From: Moorella glycerini
GTDB taxonomy: Bacteria > Bacillota > DSM-521 > Neomoorellales > Neomoorellaceae
Assembly (NCBI RefSeq): GCF_009735625.1
Contig: NZ_CP046244.1
Span: 3,050,909 to 3,114,908, forward strand
Length of the DNA stretch: 64,000 bases
Direction: 5' to 3'
This document shows positions 19,107 to 48,172 of the stretch, piece by piece; positions within the stretch are counted from its first letter, which is position 1, and the number at the start of each line of letters is the position of its first letter. The position numbers and the translations under genes were made by a program. Under the pieces are notes generated by a model that worked only from the letters and a program-made list of their open reading frames with translations, made no database searches and was not told where the DNA came from.

Positions 19107-19240
19107 TAGGTTAAACAGATGTATCCAGTATTTCAAAAAATATTTTCGCATAGTGAAAATCATGTTCTTCTTGGACCAGGCAAGTTTTGTGCCTGGGAGC
19201 ATAAGATTTAAGTAAGTTAGTATTACAGGGAGGTTAAAAC

Positions 19241-20383
19241 ATGGGCCAGGGCAAGTTAAGAAGGGTCTTCCCCGGCGGGAATACCTGTGAAGGGTTTTAT
19301 TCTTTTTATGATTACATTATCGAACCCGATGCCACCCGCATCTTCGTCGTTAAAGGCGGCCCGGGAGTGGGCAAGTCCACCTTCATGCGCAAAATCGGCG
19401 AAACCATGCTGGCTAAAGGTTATGATGTGGAATTCCACTGCTGCTCCTCCGATAACAATTCCCTGGATGCCGTGGTCATCCCGGCCATCAAAGTAGCTCT
19501 AATCGATGGTACGGCTCCCCATATAGTTGATCCCAAGAATCCCGGTGCCGTAGATGAGATTATCCACCTGGGAGACTACTGGGATGAAAGCAAGATGCGG
19601 GCCCATAAAGAGGAAATCCTTAAAGCTAACGCCCGGGTGGCGCGCTTGTTCCAGATAGCCTACAGTGCCCTCCGGGAAGCCAAGGTTATCCGCGATGAGT
19701 GGGAAAGCTATATTTCCGAGTGTATGATTGAAAGCCAGGTTAACAGGGCTGTGGCTAACTTGCTCCATACTATTTTCAGCGGTGTAGCACCACGTTATGA
19801 CCGGCCGGCCAAAGTCCGCCATCTCTTTGCCACGGCTATCACCCCCGATGGTATCATTACCGGCCACGTGGAATCCCTACTCCAGGATGTGCAGCAACTT
19901 TATACCATCTCCGGAGAACCTGGTTCCGGCGTACCACAGGTGCTGGCCCGGATCGCCGACCTGGCCCACGAAAAAGGACTGCATACTGAAATTTACCATT
20001 GCCCCTTTAATCCCCGGAATATCGATCTGGTAATCATGCCGGAAATAAAAGTGGCGGCCATGAACGTCCAGCCGCCGCATACCTACGATCCCTCGTCTTT
20101 ACCGGACCTTATGGCCATGAAACTTAACCTGTCGGCCTATATCGACCGGGATAAGCTGGGAACTTACGCCCACGAGATCAGCAGCGCCGCCTACCGCTAT
20201 CAGGCCTGCCTGGACCGGGCCGTGGCCTACATCCGCCAGGCCAAATTAACCCATGATTACATGGAAACCTTCTATATACCGGCCATGAATTTTGAGGCCA
20301 TCAACGCCAAACGCCAGGAGGTCCTGCAGCGGATTTTGAACTATGCTGCTGAATTTCCTGAAACCCTGATTAAAGCAAGTTAA
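19241..20383 (+). CDS. Conserved P-loop ATPase with internal duplication (PRK06851-like)
   Basis: 380 residues, start at ATG with GGGAGG upstream. A Walker A motif KGGPGVGKSTFM lies at residues 38-49 in a RecA-like half. A second copy of the same unit is seen at about 221-284, where the Walker A is reduced to GEPGSGVPQV and lacks Lys and Ser/Thr; the following segments (VVIPAIKVALID and LVIMPEIKVAAMN) align well. So this is a tandem duplication with one active and one dead nucleotide site. The family is conserved in spore-forming Firmicutes but has no known function. It ends with a strong terminator and looks like a single-gene unit. Confidence 0.75.
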   Translation: MGQGKLRRVFPGGNTCEGFYSFYDYIIEPDATRIFVVKGGPGVGKSTFMRKIGETMLAKGYDVEFHCCSSDNNSLDAVVIPAIKVALIDGTAPHIVDPKNPGAVDEIIHLGDYWDESKMRAHKEEILKANARVARLFQIAYSALREAKVIRDEWESYISECMIESQVNRAVANLLHTIFSGVAPRYDRPAKVRHLFATAITPDGIITGHVESLLQDVQQLYTISGEPGSGVPQVLARIADLAHEKGLHTEIYHCPFNPRNIDLVIMPEIKVAAMNVQPPHTYDPSSLPDLMAMKLNLSAYIDRDKLGTYAHEISSAAYRYQACLDRAVAYIRQAKLTHDYMETFYIPAMNFEAINAKRQEVLQRILNYAAEFPETLIKAS

Positions 20384-20390
20384 AGCTTTT

Positions 20391-20428
20391 AAAACCCTTC
20401 CTAATCTGCAGTATTAGGAAGGGTTTTT
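20391..20428 (+). terminator. Terminator of the P-loop ATPase gene
   Basis: Arms AACCCTTCCTAAT and ATTAGGAAGGGTT with loop CTGCAGT, followed by TTTTTGG. Perfect 13-base stem. Confidence 0.92.
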
Positions 20429-20432
20429 GGTA

Positions 20433-20460
20433 ACTATCCGTGGAACAAAAGCATAAGTTA
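20433..20460 (+). promoter_or_regulatory. Candidate sigma-K promoter upstream of the first glycosyltransferase
   Basis: AC (20433-20434), 17 bases, CATAAGTTA (20452-20460) fits the sporulation sigma-K consensus AC-N16/17-CATANNNTA exactly. It stands immediately after the preceding terminator and about 42 bases before the proposed start. Confidence 0.55.
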
Positions 20461-20501
20461 ACATGAGTACAAGAGATGGAAAAGAAACGGGGTGATACTC
20501 C

Positions 20502-21608
20502 CTGGACCGGCAAATAGCCATTTTTACACCCAACCTGCTGGCCTGGAATGGGCAAGAACCAGTAATCGGGGGCCTGGAAAGATACCTCCACGCCCTGGCA
20601 GAACTCCTGACAGAGATGGGTTATGAAGTTTCCTTCCATCAGAACGCCCACCGGGATTTTCAAACTACTTTCCGCGGCTGGCCGGTATATGGCTACCAGG
20701 CCGATCAGCACCATTTGCACTTAACTGTTAAACGAATGGAGGAGACTGTCCGCGGTAGAGTGCTTTATTCCTCTATTCTCCAGCAAGTCTATTACCGCCC
20801 CCGTTCTATTTGTATCTCCCACGGCGTCTGGTGGGAACTACCAGGTTACAGCCCGGCCCACGCCCGGGCTGCTTATGAAAACTATGTCGCTGCCGCCCTT
20901 ATTCAGGCCACTTTAATAATATCTTGCGACTACAACTTTCTTAACGTTGCCCGGGCCATCTACCCTAATCTGGCCGACCAGAAGGTCCGGGTAATCCCAA
21001 ACTTTGTCGATTTAAAGCAATTTTATCCTCGCGAAAAAGAACAACAGCCTAGGGTACGCGTCCTGTACCCGCGCCGGCTGGCCCCGGAACGGGGCTTTGA
21101 CCTGTTGAAAGAGGTTATCCCTCCTTTACTGGCTGAGTACCCCGACCTGGAGTTTCTCTTTGCCATTGATACAAATACCCCCCGGTACCTGGAGATTTTT
21201 CATGCCTGGCGGCAAAAGGAGGCCCATAACGGGCGTATCCTTTACTGTCATCCAGACTTTAACGCCATGCCGGAGGTTTATGCCGCTGCCGATATAGTTG
21301 TTATTCCCAGTATTTATTCGGAGGGTACCAGCTTTTCATGCCTGGAGGCCATGGCCATGGGTAAGGCCGTTATTGCCACCAATGTTGGCGGGCTCACCAA
21401 TCTGATTATCGATGGCTATAATGGCCTGTTAATCCATCCCTCCAGGGAATACCTGACCCAAGCCCTGCGCTTTTTAATTGATCACCCCCGGGAACGCCTG
21501 CGCCTCGGTGCCAATGCCGCTGCTACCGCCCGGGCCTTTGACCGTCGCCTCTGGGAAGCCCGCTGGCGCCAGTATATCAGCAGGGTTTATCCTTTGGATA
21601 AGCTGTAG
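20502..21608 (+). CDS. Glycosyltransferase family 4, copy 1 (probable CTG start)
   Basis: 368 residues if translation begins at CTG 20502. The segment before the first in-frame ATG (20616) encodes RQIAIFTPNLLAW and GGLERYLHALAELLTEMGYE, the canonical acceptor-side N-terminus of a GT4 enzyme, so the ATG start would remove essential sequence. An in-frame TGA lies at 20493-20495 and GGGGTGAT precedes CTG by five bases. C-terminal motifs are YPRRLAPERGF and SEGTSFSCLEAMAMGKAVIA (the E-x7-E nucleotide-sugar site). No signal peptide or membrane segment. Paralogue of the gene at 22979-24097; both flank the TasA-like gene. Confidence 0.85.
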   Translation: MDRQIAIFTPNLLAWNGQEPVIGGLERYLHALAELLTEMGYEVSFHQNAHRDFQTTFRGWPVYGYQADQHHLHLTVKRMEETVRGRVLYSSILQQVYYRPRSICISHGVWWELPGYSPAHARAAYENYVAAALIQATLIISCDYNFLNVARAIYPNLADQKVRVIPNFVDLKQFYPREKEQQPRVRVLYPRRLAPERGFDLLKEVIPPLLAEYPDLEFLFAIDTNTPRYLEIFHAWRQKEAHNGRILYCHPDFNAMPEVYAAADIVVIPSIYSEGTSFSCLEAMAMGKAVIATNVGGLTNLIIDGYNGLLIHPSREYLTQALRFLIDHPRERLRLGANAAATARAFDRRLWEARWRQYISRVYPLDKL

Positions 21609-21629
21609 TTCGGAGGGGAAGTAAGTTCT

Positions 21630-22331
21630 ATGCCCAAGGTTACGGCCATGATGATCGTTCGTAATGAAGCCAATCGTTATTTGGAGCGCTGCCTTAAAGC
21701 TTTGACTGACTATGTTGATGAGCTGGTCATCCTGGACGATGCCTCTACGGATGCTACTCCTGAGATCTGTTTGAGTTTCCCCATGGTTAAACTTTATTGC
21801 CGCGATACCCCCTTATTTCTTAAGGATGAAGCCCAGTTGCGCTGCGAACTCTGGCACCATACCGTAGCTACCAACCCCGAATGGATACTGGCCCTTGATG
21901 CCGATGAATTCCTGGAGACCAGGGTAGACCGGGAACTCCCTTATTTGCTAAAACAGGATCTCTTTCCAGCTATTAGCTTTCGCCTTTTTGATTGCTGGGG
22001 CAGTGAAGACTACTACCGCGTCGACGGCCTCTGGAATCCCTGGCTGCGTGGTTTTTCTATCTACCTCGTCAAGTACCAGCCCTGGCTGGATGCCGCCTGG
22101 CCATTACAAAAATTTCACTGCGGCCGCCTGCCTCTAGCCTACCGCCGCCTGCCCCACCTGGAAAGCGATCTAAGGATCAAACACCTCGGCTGGGCCAACC
22201 CGGCTGATATCCGGGCTAAATACGAGCGCGCCGTTAGCCAGGATCCGACCTTTAAATATATGCCCCGGGAACATTATGAAAGCATCCTCTGGCCAGCGGA
22301 TAAAATTCAGCTCGAAAAATGGCAGGACTAG
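21630..22331 (+). CDS. Glycosyltransferase family 2
   Basis: 233 residues, ATG with GGAGGGGAAG upstream, 21 bases after the preceding gene. N-terminus KVTAMMIVRNEANRYLERCL, then VILDDASTDATPEI and the metal-binding LALDADEFLE motif at about residue 90. The C-terminal part (LAYRRLPHLESDLRIKHLGW, then KYERAVSQDP) is like cytoplasmic GT2 enzymes that glycosylate surface proteins or coat polysaccharides. No membrane segment. Target unknown; context suggests it acts on the product of the TasA-like gene downstream. Confidence 0.85.
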   Translation: MPKVTAMMIVRNEANRYLERCLKALTDYVDELVILDDASTDATPEICLSFPMVKLYCRDTPLFLKDEAQLRCELWHHTVATNPEWILALDADEFLETRVDRELPYLLKQDLFPAISFRLFDCWGSEDYYRVDGLWNPWLRGFSIYLVKYQPWLDAAWPLQKFHCGRLPLAYRRLPHLESDLRIKHLGWANPADIRAKYERAVSQDPTFKYMPREHYESILWPADKIQLEKWQD

Positions 22332-22334
22332 ATA

Positions 22335-22362
22335 ACTTCTCCGTGCTAAGATGCATATAGTA
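22335..22362 (+). promoter_or_regulatory. Candidate sigma-K promoter upstream of the TasA-like gene
   Basis: AC (22335-22336), 17 bases, CATATAGTA (22354-22362) matches the sigma-K consensus exactly and has the same spacing as the site at 20433. Both -35 elements read TAACT. Confidence 0.55.
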
Positions 22363-22451
22363 ATACTAATCCAGAAAAAGGAAAGACCCCCTTTGTCAAT
22401 ACCCAAAAGGCATAGGGGGAAAGAGAAAAGCTTGTAAAAGGAGTGATCTGC

Positions 22452-22913
22452 ATGGCTCTAACCGCCAGCGCCACTGTTACTGGCAGTACGGCAGGAACTG
22501 CCGATGTGGCTCTAACCTTAAGCCCGACCACGGCCCTTTTTTCCCCGGCCAACCTGGTTCCCGGCCAGTCTGTCGGGTCGCCCCAGCTGCAAGTGTCAAA
22601 TACCGGTACTGTAGACGAGTATTACTTTATCTTTGCTGACTGGAAGGAAGTAAGCCCTACTACTCCCCGCGAGGCCCAGTTACTTGCCGACCGCTTAAAC
22701 ATTTATATCGAAGCCAGCCCAGCAACAGTGCTCTATAATGGCACTCTTTCCGGTCTATACAACCAGCCTTCTAGTGGCCGCCTGCTGGTTTCGCCCTATG
22801 ATGACCTGCTGACCTTCGTCGTCAGCCTGCCTAGTAATACGGGTACCATAGCCCAGAACCTGGACTTGAGCGTCGATCTGGTCTTTACGGCCCAGGCTTC
22901 CCCCCTCGCTTAA
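22452..22913 (+). CDS. TasA/camelysin-like beta-sandwich protein without signal peptide
   Basis: 153 residues from ATG 22452, which has AGGAGTGAT just upstream. The layout matches the CalY/TasA (M73) fold: ATVTGSTAGTADVALTLSPT, LVPGQSVGSPQLQVSNTG with the family PGxxV ... VxNTG turn, ADRLNIYIEASP, LYNGTLSGL and LLTFVVSLPSNTGTIAQNL. Family members are normally secreted fibre or matrix proteins cut by signal peptidase SipW. Here no signal peptide or SipW gene exists and the mature fold begins at once. The N-terminus is rich in Thr/Ser, which suits O-glycosylation by the flanking enzymes. I propose a mother-cell spore-coat protein; this is inference. Confidence 0.7.
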   Translation: MALTASATVTGSTAGTADVALTLSPTTALFSPANLVPGQSVGSPQLQVSNTGTVDEYYFIFADWKEVSPTTPREAQLLADRLNIYIEASPATVLYNGTLSGLYNQPSSGRLLVSPYDDLLTFVVSLPSNTGTIAQNLDLSVDLVFTAQASPLA

Positions 22914-22918
22914 AGCAT

Positions 22919-22943
22919 AGCCCGGCCCCGGCCGGGCTTAACT
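22919..22943 (+). terminator. Hairpin after the TasA-like gene (weak terminator)
   Basis: AGCCCGGC and GCCGGGCT with a four-base loop, followed by TAACTTT; the T run is poor, so read-through to the next gene is likely. Confidence 0.45.
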
Positions 22944-22978
22944 TTGGAGAGCTAATTGCAAGAAGGTGATAAAGAGAT

Positions 22979-24097
22979 ATGACGACTAAAAAGGTAGCTT
23001 TTTTAACGACTAACTTTTTTCACCCTACTAACGAAAGAATTATTATGGGCGGTGCGGAGCGTTACCAGGTTGACCTCTGCCGCCTGCTCCGCGAGCTAGG
23101 TTTTTATGTTGAGATCTGGCAGATAGGCAGCGGTTGGACCCAGGAATTCGATGGCGTGCGTATCCGCAGCATCCCGGTTTCTAGAAGCGAATACCATACC
23201 TTTCCCGAGCTCAGTACAGCCTTTTATGAGAATTCCATGGCCTTTGATTACGCCATTTATTTCATCCTTACCCTGGCTTACCCCATAGCCCGGGAAAAAA
23301 GCATTGCCATTAGCCACGGGATCTTTTGGGATTGGCCGGGTTTCGACCTCATGGCCGGACGCCTGGAGGACCGCCAGGAATGGTTAAGGCGGCTTGGTAT
23401 TGCCCTGATAGGCCCACAAAAATTAATCTCTGTAGATACCAACACCATTAACTTCTTCAATGCTACCCTCCCCGGCTTTTATCACAAATGGGAGTACATC
23501 CCCAATTATGTTGATACTGACCTTTTTCACCCACCTGAGGAGGTAAAAAATAGCACGGATACCATCCGTGTCCTGTTCCCCCGCCGGCTGGTTCCCGTTC
23601 GCGGGATTAATGAAACCATGCGGGCAGCAGAAAGATTGACGGCTCGCTATCCCTGGATTGAATTTCATTTTTGTGGACGCGGCCATGATGACAACGCCGA
23701 AAGGCTCATGTCCCAGTGGATTGCTACCCAGGAACGTTGCTTTTACTACTGGAAGCCCCTGGAGATGATGCCCGAGGTTTACCGCCAGGCGGATATTGTC
23801 ATCATCCCTTCACGCTCTACCGAAGGCACGAGTCTGGCCGCCCTGGAGGCCATGGCCAGCGGCCGGCCGGTAATTGCCGGCCTGGCCGGTGGCTTGAGCG
23901 ACATTATTTTGCACGGCTACAATGGTTATCTAATTAAACCGACTGTGGAAAATCTGGTGGCGGCCATCGAAGATTTGGCCCGGGATAAAGCTAAAAGGCA
24001 GATCATGGGCCAGAGGGCTCGGGAAGTGGCTCTGACTTTCAACCGTAAGATATGGGCTGAGCGTTGGGCCAGGGTCCTGGAAACAGTCTTTCGCTAA
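22979..24097 (+). CDS. Glycosyltransferase family 4, copy 2
   Basis: 372 residues, ATG with AAGGTGATAAAG upstream. GT4 hallmarks: VAFLTTNFFHPTNERIIMGG then AERYQVDLCRLLRELG at the N-terminus, FPRRLVPVRGINETM near 195, and STEGTSLAALEAMASGRPVI (E-x7-E) near 290. The two copies share the same architecture and motif spacing, and probably arose by duplication. Cytoplasmic; no signal peptide. Probably transcribed with the TasA-like gene. Confidence 0.87.
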   Translation: MTTKKVAFLTTNFFHPTNERIIMGGAERYQVDLCRLLRELGFYVEIWQIGSGWTQEFDGVRIRSIPVSRSEYHTFPELSTAFYENSMAFDYAIYFILTLAYPIAREKSIAISHGIFWDWPGFDLMAGRLEDRQEWLRRLGIALIGPQKLISVDTNTINFFNATLPGFYHKWEYIPNYVDTDLFHPPEEVKNSTDTIRVLFPRRLVPVRGINETMRAAERLTARYPWIEFHFCGRGHDDNAERLMSQWIATQERCFYYWKPLEMMPEVYRQADIVIIPSRSTEGTSLAALEAMASGRPVIAGLAGGLSDIILHGYNGYLIKPTVENLVAAIEDLARDKAKRQIMGQRAREVALTFNRKIWAERWARVLETVFR

Positions 24098-24134
24098 TTG
24101 TCTGGTTTTGGACTCACCGGGTGGGTGAAGGTAT

Positions 24135-24785
24135 GTGCCCTTTACAGCTCCTACTGTGGCCAATAAAGGTAACCGCTTCCATGTCGGTCCCAGTCCGATT
24201 ATCCTGGTAACGGTGCAGGAATGGGTGGTCTTTAATATCGTGCAATCAGCTTTGCTGTTAATTCCAGCCTGGGGAATACAGCCAGTAAGTCCGCCTGCAA
24301 ATGCGCTTGCTGCCCATGCCGGCCGGCCTTTATTACTTGAGGAACTACAGCCGGGGTATATTGAATTAGTCACTGCGGAAAGGGTGCTGGATTCGGTTTA
24401 CCTGGCCACGGAAAACTTATTCCAGTGGTCTTATAGTTCCTCCTCACCTACCCTAGGCGTGCCGGTTAAAGTTATTGCCTGCGGGGTTAAAAATATTACC
24501 GCCAGGCAGCAACTGGTGCCCATTCCCCCCGGCAGCCATGCCCTGGCTAGGGCTTTCTACAATTATGAAATTCTTGTGACCTATGCCGATGCTGCCGGCC
24601 ACACCGCTACCATTACCTTGATGTCCGGGCCCCGCTGGCAGCGGGCCTTTGTTTCCGCCGGACCGGGCCGCCTGGAGGTACAGGTCAAGGTTGCCTGTTC
24701 ACGGATTGAGATTACTACTCCCCCTGCCCCGGAACCCGGGCCGGCCTTGCCGTATAAGCCGGTCCGGGTATGGGTTTGGGGGTGA
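24135..24785 (+). CDS. Unrecognised protein next to the TasA-like/glycosyltransferase group
   Basis: 216 residues from a GTG at 24135 with GGTGAAGG upstream. I do not recognise the family. Visible traits are a hydrophobic N-terminal part (SPIILVTVQEWVVFNIV, AALLLIPAWG-like) that does not look like a signal peptide, a Ser-rich FQWSYSSSSP, beta-rich middle and C-terminal sections (ARAFYNYEILVTYADAAGHT, RLEVQVKVACSRIEI) and a Pro-rich tail. It is 37 bases after the GT4 gene and reads the same way, so it likely belongs to the same unit; a second spore-surface component is a reasonable guess. Confidence 0.6.
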   Translation: MPFTAPTVANKGNRFHVGPSPIILVTVQEWVVFNIVQSALLLIPAWGIQPVSPPANALAAHAGRPLLLEELQPGYIELVTAERVLDSVYLATENLFQWSYSSSSPTLGVPVKVIACGVKNITARQQLVPIPPGSHALARAFYNYEILVTYADAAGHTATITLMSGPRWQRAFVSAGPGRLEVQVKVACSRIEITTPPAPEPGPALPYKPVRVWVWG

Positions 24786-47663: not shown

Positions 47664-48172
47664 CTTTTATACACCTCCTCCCGGGTAACTGGTGCTAACA
47701 GGTTGCGTAAGCCTTGCAGGCAACCGTCCAGGGCAAACCAGGTTAAAAAGAGACTGCCTAAGGGAATGGCCAGGTACACATAACCCATAGGGATCCGCAT
47801 GGCTGGAGATGGCTGGTTCATGGCGATGCTTGTCAGCTTAAAGCCATAATTCACCAGAGTTATGGCGAAAATGGCTACGCACAGTTCGATGATTGCTTCC
47901 GTGAAAATTTTTATTTTACCCGGGAGGCGATTAAAGATTATATCCACGCCCATATGCATTTTCCTGACCAGGGCTACCGGGGCTGCCATAAACACCACCC
48001 ATATGAAGAGATACCGGGTGAGTTCCTCCGACCAGGTAAGCGAATTGTTTAAGACATAGCGGAATATTACTTGGAGGAAGGCGGAGGCAATGGCAGTACC
48101 CACGCAGATTATAATCAGGTACTCCAGAACCTTAATAACGAAATGCTTTAACTGGTTATATAGTTTGGCCAT
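47660..48172 (-). CDS. dctQ: TRAP transporter small membrane subunit
   Basis: 170 residues with four membrane spans (about 14-38, 50-70, 90-110, 130-150) and the DctQ pattern FRYVLNNSLTWSEELTRYLF with WVVFMAAPVALVRKMHMGVD. It is the partner of DctM; it overlaps dctM by four bases. Confidence 0.92.
   Translation of the reverse strand: MAKLYNQLKHFVIKVLEYLIIICVGTAIASAFLQVIFRYVLNNSLTWSEELTRYLFIWVVFMAAPVALVRKMHMGVDIIFNRLPGKIKIFTEAIIELCVAIFAITLVNYGFKLTSIAMNQPSPAMRIPMGYVYLAIPLGSLFLTWFALDGCLQGLRNLLAPVTREEVYKS

Follow-up and report, generated by a model that had tools for sequence, protein, structure and literature searches.

Five consecutive genes on the plus strand of the thermophilic spore former Moorella glycerini, herein designated GT4a, GT2, TasL, GT4b and UNK in this order, appear to constitute a late-sporulation module of the mother cell, through which the spore surface would acquire a glycosylated structure of TasA-like type, probably a donor-strand fibre with docking through a SPOCS-like protein, and this reading is given a probability of about 0.6. 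GT4a, GT2 and GT4b are the glycosyltransferases (GTs), TasL is the TasA-like protein, and UNK is the unknown protein encoded by the last gene. The genes are located within a stretch of 64,000 nucleotides (the window), to which all positions given without a genome or locus name refer.

Organization of the module

GT4a (20502-21608) and GT4b (22979-24097) are soluble family-4 glycosyltransferases (PF00534, E 3.8e-22 and 2.8e-29, respectively), GT2 (21630-22331) is a soluble family-2 glycosyltransferase (PF13704, E 6.9e-10), TasL (22452-22913) is a TasA/camelysin-like protein of 153 amino acids without signal peptide, and UNK (24135-24785) is a beta-rich protein of 216 amino acids with an MPFTxxxxNKxN leader. 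Pfam gave no match for either Moorella TasL or UNK. A preliminary description of this DNA had proposed five consecutive genes with soluble glycosyltransferases around a TasA-like protein, and this arrangement was borne out by the Pfam assignments (GT4, GT2 and GT4) and by a hydropathy scan, in which the module proteins showed neither a signal peptide-like N-terminus nor a clear membrane segment. The module is flanked by an intrinsic terminator on the 5' side (20391-20427) and by a convergent glutamine synthetase gene on the 3' side.

Conservation of the gene set and co-occurrence with sigK

TasL was located by profile in a set of 398 genomes of the phylum, of which 53 gave matches, and a total of 51 TasL loci were fetched for analysis of neighbourhoods. 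GT4b adjoins TasL in 40 of the 51 loci and is the most widely retained enzyme partner, while TasL, GT4b and a UNK/SPOCS-type protein are found together in 39 loci from 15 families, the kind of conserved neighbourhood that the preliminary description had suggested looking for. GT4a, present at 15 of the 51 TasL loci, is an accessory part of the module. In M. thermoacetica and other Moorella the module occupies different genomic places with its gene order unchanged, and in genome G055 and several metagenome-assembled genomes (MAGs) the same genes stand in the same order within unrelated surroundings; the five genes form a unit. The nitrogen-assimilation setting, also claimed at the outset, holds in the four closest species, to which the glutamine-synthetase/nitrogen-assimilation neighbourhood is limited, and does not belong to the unit; a link to nitrogen assimilation was rejected because the module is located elsewhere in other Moorella. 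In one lineage GT2 and GT4b are fused into a protein of 670-683 amino acids, its gene sitting between TasL and the SPOCS-type gene. No relatives were found on viral contigs.

Several variants were observed among these loci. A TasL subfamily without GTs (L051, L083, L084, L086, L089 and L094, in families f18 and f56) is followed by a small two-zinc-ribbon protein, and at L099 a gene for a protein of the same kind lies upstream. At L106 (10936-16932, minus strand) the module takes an enlarged form: TasL is present twice, along with a carboxypeptidase-regulatory-like protein, and of the three large GT2 proteins encoded there one carries TPR repeats. The TasL frame is interrupted in the Moorella sp. 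UBA4076 MAG (L028/L046), with an ambiguous base nearby, and this interruption is probably an assembly fault.

The sigK gene, as called with a curated cut-off applied as E about 1e-89, was identified in 51 of the 53 TasL-positive genomes, versus 277 of the 398 genomes overall (Fisher P 6e-7), an outcome in favour of the preliminary interpretation. Of the two exceptions, G012 has its sigK divided between contigs C11 and C69, the break lying close to residue 110 as a skin-type interruption would lead one to expect, and G308 gives a marginal TasL match only. In the genome from which the window is taken, sigK is cut by the contig start (G000:C1:1-624), and from the breaks in G000 and G012 the sigK of Moorellaceae may carry a skin-type element.

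Two sigma-K-type promoters

Two sites of the AC-N17-CATANNNTA type had been noted by the preliminary description, and both proved exact: the site upstream of GT4a (20433-20460, AC-N17-CATAAGTTA) reads ACTATCCGTGGAACAAAAGCATAAGTTA, and the site upstream of TasL (22335-22362, AC-N17-CATATAGTA) reads ACTTCTCCGTGCTAAGATGCATATAGTA, with G preceding CATA in both. The sigma-K consensus of B. subtilis is KCACM/GCATANNNTA (PMC3416734), and the consensus elements (AC/CACM for -35, GCATANNNTA for -10) are matched exactly at both sites, the ACC-like -35 being in line with that consensus. The first site is directly preceded by the terminator (15-bp stem, -19.6 kcal/mol, z -5.2) that serves the PRK06851-type gene upstream, and hence GT4a requires a promoter of its own. 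Within the window, the strict pattern appears three times on the plus strand and not at all on the minus strand, with a Markov expectation of 0.7 per strand; for two matches falling within the module's intergenic DNA, 340 bp in total, P is about 7e-6 as a post-hoc figure. The third plus-strand match to AC-N17-CATANNNTA is at 48151.

The site upstream of TasL is present in all 10 Moorella orthologs read, with different spacing to the ATG (two clades, at about -117 and about -62) and different flanking DNA, and thus the CATANNNTA sites are kept in orthologous loci though the surrounding DNA has diverged. Among 30 representatives with less than 80% identity, 12 carry the site (shuffle mean 0.27, maximum 3 in 1000), versus 1 of 30 when the reverse complement is read. 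Of 319 other open reading frames (ORFs) 9 carry it, some of these nine being GT genes of the module or a cysteine-rich spore-type gene. Several further divergent TasL upstreams carry the site with one mismatch. The GT4a site is strict at the same place in six further Moorella orthologs and degenerate in two. Control by sigma-E was rejected since ATA at -35 was found in none of the TasL upstreams examined. In the same genome, a sigma-K site lies 35 nt before yabG (PF05582, E 4.7e-111). The yabG gene belongs to the sigma-K class in B. subtilis. In C. difficile, yabG is reported to be made under mother-cell sigma factors (PMC10681294).

A cysteine-rich protein of 209 amino acids (IDCIEVLKVYDQC ... 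LVPTYGFC) is encoded near the cassette at L048 (6231-6857), preceded at -72 by a strict sigma-K site of its own, and a similar protein is encoded near the cassette at L025 (9114-9719, minus strand). The L048 protein belongs to no Pfam family and looks like a clostridial spore-surface protein.

TasL is a homologue of TasA and camelysin

The TasA/CalY-like identity of TasL, first proposed by inspection, was confirmed by profile comparison. PF12389 matches 13 of 35 TasL family members weakly (best 9.1e-5) and Moorella TasL itself not at all, and in these matches TasL residues 2-10 fall on profile positions 26-34. When aligned by hhalign with the secreted TasA/camelysin-type proteins of the same phylum, TasL gave 96.4% (E 1.4e-9) over residues 3-149, with residue 3 placed directly after the signal peptide of the secreted proteins (...GGATFA-LFTDEATNSNNTFAAGT). 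The N-terminus of TasL, MALTASATVTG, thus stands where the mature chain of TasA begins, and a SipW-cleaved signal peptide is absent. Because the alignment begins at the mature chain, TasL is read as a TasA-like protein in which Met replaces the signal peptide. On the evidence of these profiles, TasL is a TasA/camelysin homologue. Residues 28-38 of TasA, its mature N-terminus, form the donor strand (PMC9674648). A search of PDB sequences with the TasL and UNK profiles gave nothing credible.

Homology with TasA could also be taken to indicate a vegetative module for the biofilm matrix or the cell surface, like tapA-sipW-tasA. Such a function is hardly credible for a protein without signal peptide, beside which no SipW-like gene was seen, and the sigma-K sites, the co-occurrence with sigK and the SPOCS partners also argue against it.

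UNK counterparts contain the SPOCS domain

In other families the gene at the UNK position encodes proteins of 150-190 amino acids with the same leader, to which UNK is aligned by hhalign with 94.1%. These counterparts were in turn aligned with SPOCS at 97.2% (E 4.6e-11; controls below 1%), and PF12673 was detected in 6 of 11 of them. As the distant counterparts of UNK are SPOCS coat-type proteins, the spore-surface reading is strengthened. A gene for a protein with four SPOCS domains is located directly downstream in seven loci. An AlphaFold2 (AF2) model of UNK (predicted local distance difference test score, pLDDT, 73) gave no Foldseek hit in PDB at E below 0.001, and neither the TasL nor the UNK family matched DUF3992 or DUF4183, the subunits of endospore appendages (ENAs), in Pfam.

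The FT...N..N leader is common to the N-termini of the TasL and UNK families and corresponds to the donor strand of TasA. In its strict form, F[TS]-x3-6-[NG]-x1-2-N, it was detected in 15 of 27 UNK/SPOCS proteins versus 0 of 596 background ORFs. Homology of TasL and UNK over their whole length was rejected, the alignment being confined to the 13-residue leader. The leader bears on an alternative in which TasL is a globular component of the coat or exosporium that the GTs decorate and the SPOCS-like protein a second coat component, both belonging to a sigma-K-controlled spore-coat glycoprotein system that forms no filament. The regulatory, homology and neighbourhood evidence fits this alternative equally well, and the solo TasL genes beside zinc-ribbon genes favour it; it is nevertheless regarded as unlikely, because a leader equal to the mature N-terminus of TasA and reused on a SPOCS protein fits donor-strand assembly specifically.

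The glycosyltransferases

EX7E was found in every GT4a and GT4b examined and DxD in every GT2, and the three soluble enzymes look catalytically intact. Among solved structures GT2 comes nearest, over its first 95 residues only, to GmaR (E 5.7e-7) and to enzymes of the SunS type (E 4.2e-6), which are cytoplasmic protein or peptide glycosyltransferases, while the nearest solved relatives of GT4b are MshA-type enzymes, PimB' and TarM, which act on small-molecule or wall teichoic acid acceptors. No gene for a carrier-lipid enzyme, a flippase or a polymerase was conserved with the module in the neighbourhoods examined.

Genes of the sps/cge type in B. subtilis are thought to build spore polysaccharide, and the GTs of the module could likewise build a free or coat-attached polysaccharide, with TasL merely a scaffold or bystander. 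The acceptors of the GT4b relatives are in line with this possibility, as are a UDP-N-acetylglucosamine 2-epimerase-like protein at L109 (recognized by eye) and a polysaccharide pyruvyl transferase at L099. It is considered quite improbable, because flippase, polymerase and carrier-lipid enzymes are not conserved with the module, the solved enzymes closest to GT2 are GmaR and SunS, and the constant partners are TasL and SPOCS proteins.

Proposed mechanism and its weighing

For the module as a spore-surface fibre system, the following course is proposed. Late in the mother cell, sigma-K would switch on two promoters, one for GT4a-GT2 and one for TasL-GT4b-UNK. A hairpin without T tract after TasL (22919-22938; -16.6 kcal/mol, z -1.7) is perhaps an attenuator or mRNA stabiliser, and may, as far as this weak signal goes, raise the level of TasL above that of GT4b. 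Being without signal peptide, TasL would be made and retained in the mother-cell cytosol, the site of coat assembly, where GT2 (GmaR/SunS-like) and GT4b, with GT4a as accessory, would transfer a short glycan directly onto TasL (or UNK), neither export nor a lipid carrier being needed. TasL would then polymerise by donor-strand exchange like TasA, with the FT...N..N leader as donor strand, and UNK, as a SPOCS-like coat protein with the same leader, would give the first donor strand and dock the fibre to the coat, a role parallel to that proposed for TapA with TasA. A wider generalization, to a phylum-wide and hitherto unrecognised class of endospore appendages in which a signal-less TasA paralogue, put to new use within the mother cell, is glycosylated in the cytosol by its own GT2-GT4 pair and polymerised by donor-strand exchange starting at a SPOCS-domain coat anchor with a copied donor strand, is offered tentatively, at somewhat less than even chance.

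The unit, the homologies, the sites and the co-occurrence with sigK are supported by sequence tests, and the late-sporulation, spore-surface interpretation of the preliminary description gains support from the conserved sites, the sigK co-occurrence and the SPOCS counterparts. Several points weigh against the proposal. Glycosylation and its target, the sugar, filament formation, anchoring and expression in sporulating cells are all features that we infer from sequence. The promoter pattern is not enriched genome-wide (55 matches versus 70 for a reversed control), and therefore the motif alone is not evidence and the weight rests on its conservation; families f39, f92 and most of f50 lack a recognisable site before TasL. 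Solo TasL genes without GTs in families f18, f53, f56 and f104 indicate that glycosylation is not obligatory for TasL, and the Moorella genome G004 carries sigK and lacks TasL. The AF2 model of TasL (pLDDT 34) is unusable for a jellyroll fold, and the fold assignment thus rests on profiles. Finally, Moorella UNK aligned directly with SPOCS gave 0.5%, the link running via the intermediate family only.

Start codons and the upstream gene

The start of TasL is most likely ATG at 22452 rather than GTG at 22443, and that of GT4a most likely CTG at 20502, while ORF finders place the latter at 20616. Near the GT4a ribosome site (20490-20505) an in-frame ATG, GTG or TTG start is absent. The GT4a start region reads ACTCCCTG (CTG start) in three species; in M. 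mulderi it is one C shorter, and an in-frame GTG could be used there. Upstream of the module and outside the conserved unit lies a PRK06851-type ATPase gene (19241-20383) with a near-consensus -10, CATAAGAT, near 19181.

Comparison with known systems

Very little has been mapped of the spore surface in anaerobic thermophiles and syntrophs, and a conserved module of defined parts would open a way to its outer layers. Through it, TasA-type proteins would be seen to serve a second time, within the mother cell, and glycosylation of coat proteins in the cytosol could be put to a direct test. Parts of the idea are each known on their own (TasA fibres, SgtA-BclA3, ENAs and SipL), and the combination is not. 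As in the preliminary description, which knew of no system with this composition, no description of the module was found in the open-access literature, and this absence is not proof, subscription papers being outside the scope.

CotSA, a GT4-type coat protein (moth_1365) detected in spores of M. thermoacetica (PMC8745062), is alike as a glycosyltransferase-type protein in spores, and is likened to GT4a and GT4b by type only. The spore proteome of that species comprises 1018 proteins, with discussion limited to orthologues of known spore proteins, and the raw data (PXD029621) already permit looking for TasL (PMC8745062). F-ENA forms spore-attached protein fibres, one clostridial form having putative O-glycans (PMC11952670). 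A spore-attached fibre, in the module a proposed one, is the shared feature; F-ENA differs in its C3-symmetric DUF4183 fold, set by its authors outside donor-strand exchanged fibres, and in that no GT module is reported. SgtA of Clostridioides difficile adds O-linked N-acetylglucosamine to Thr of BclA3 (PMC7157674), and here too a GT gene adjoins that of a spore-surface protein; BclA3 is collagen-like, however, there is one GT, and TasA-like and SPOCS partners are absent. SipL acts together with SpoIVA when the coat is assembled (PMC8265636) and shares the SPOCS domain with the UNK counterparts, which differ in being single-domain, in carrying the FT..N..N leader and in being tied to GTs and TasL. 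With the TasA/TapA fibres of Bacillus subtilis and camelysin (PF12389), TasL is homologous over its length and its leader equals the mature N-terminus, and the donor strand is also copied in the partner protein of the module, as proposed for TapA as the partner of TasA (PMC9674648). In contrast to TasA/TapA, the module is without signal peptide and SipW, includes three GTs and a SPOCS-like partner, and has sigma-K-type promoters where TasA has the biofilm operon.

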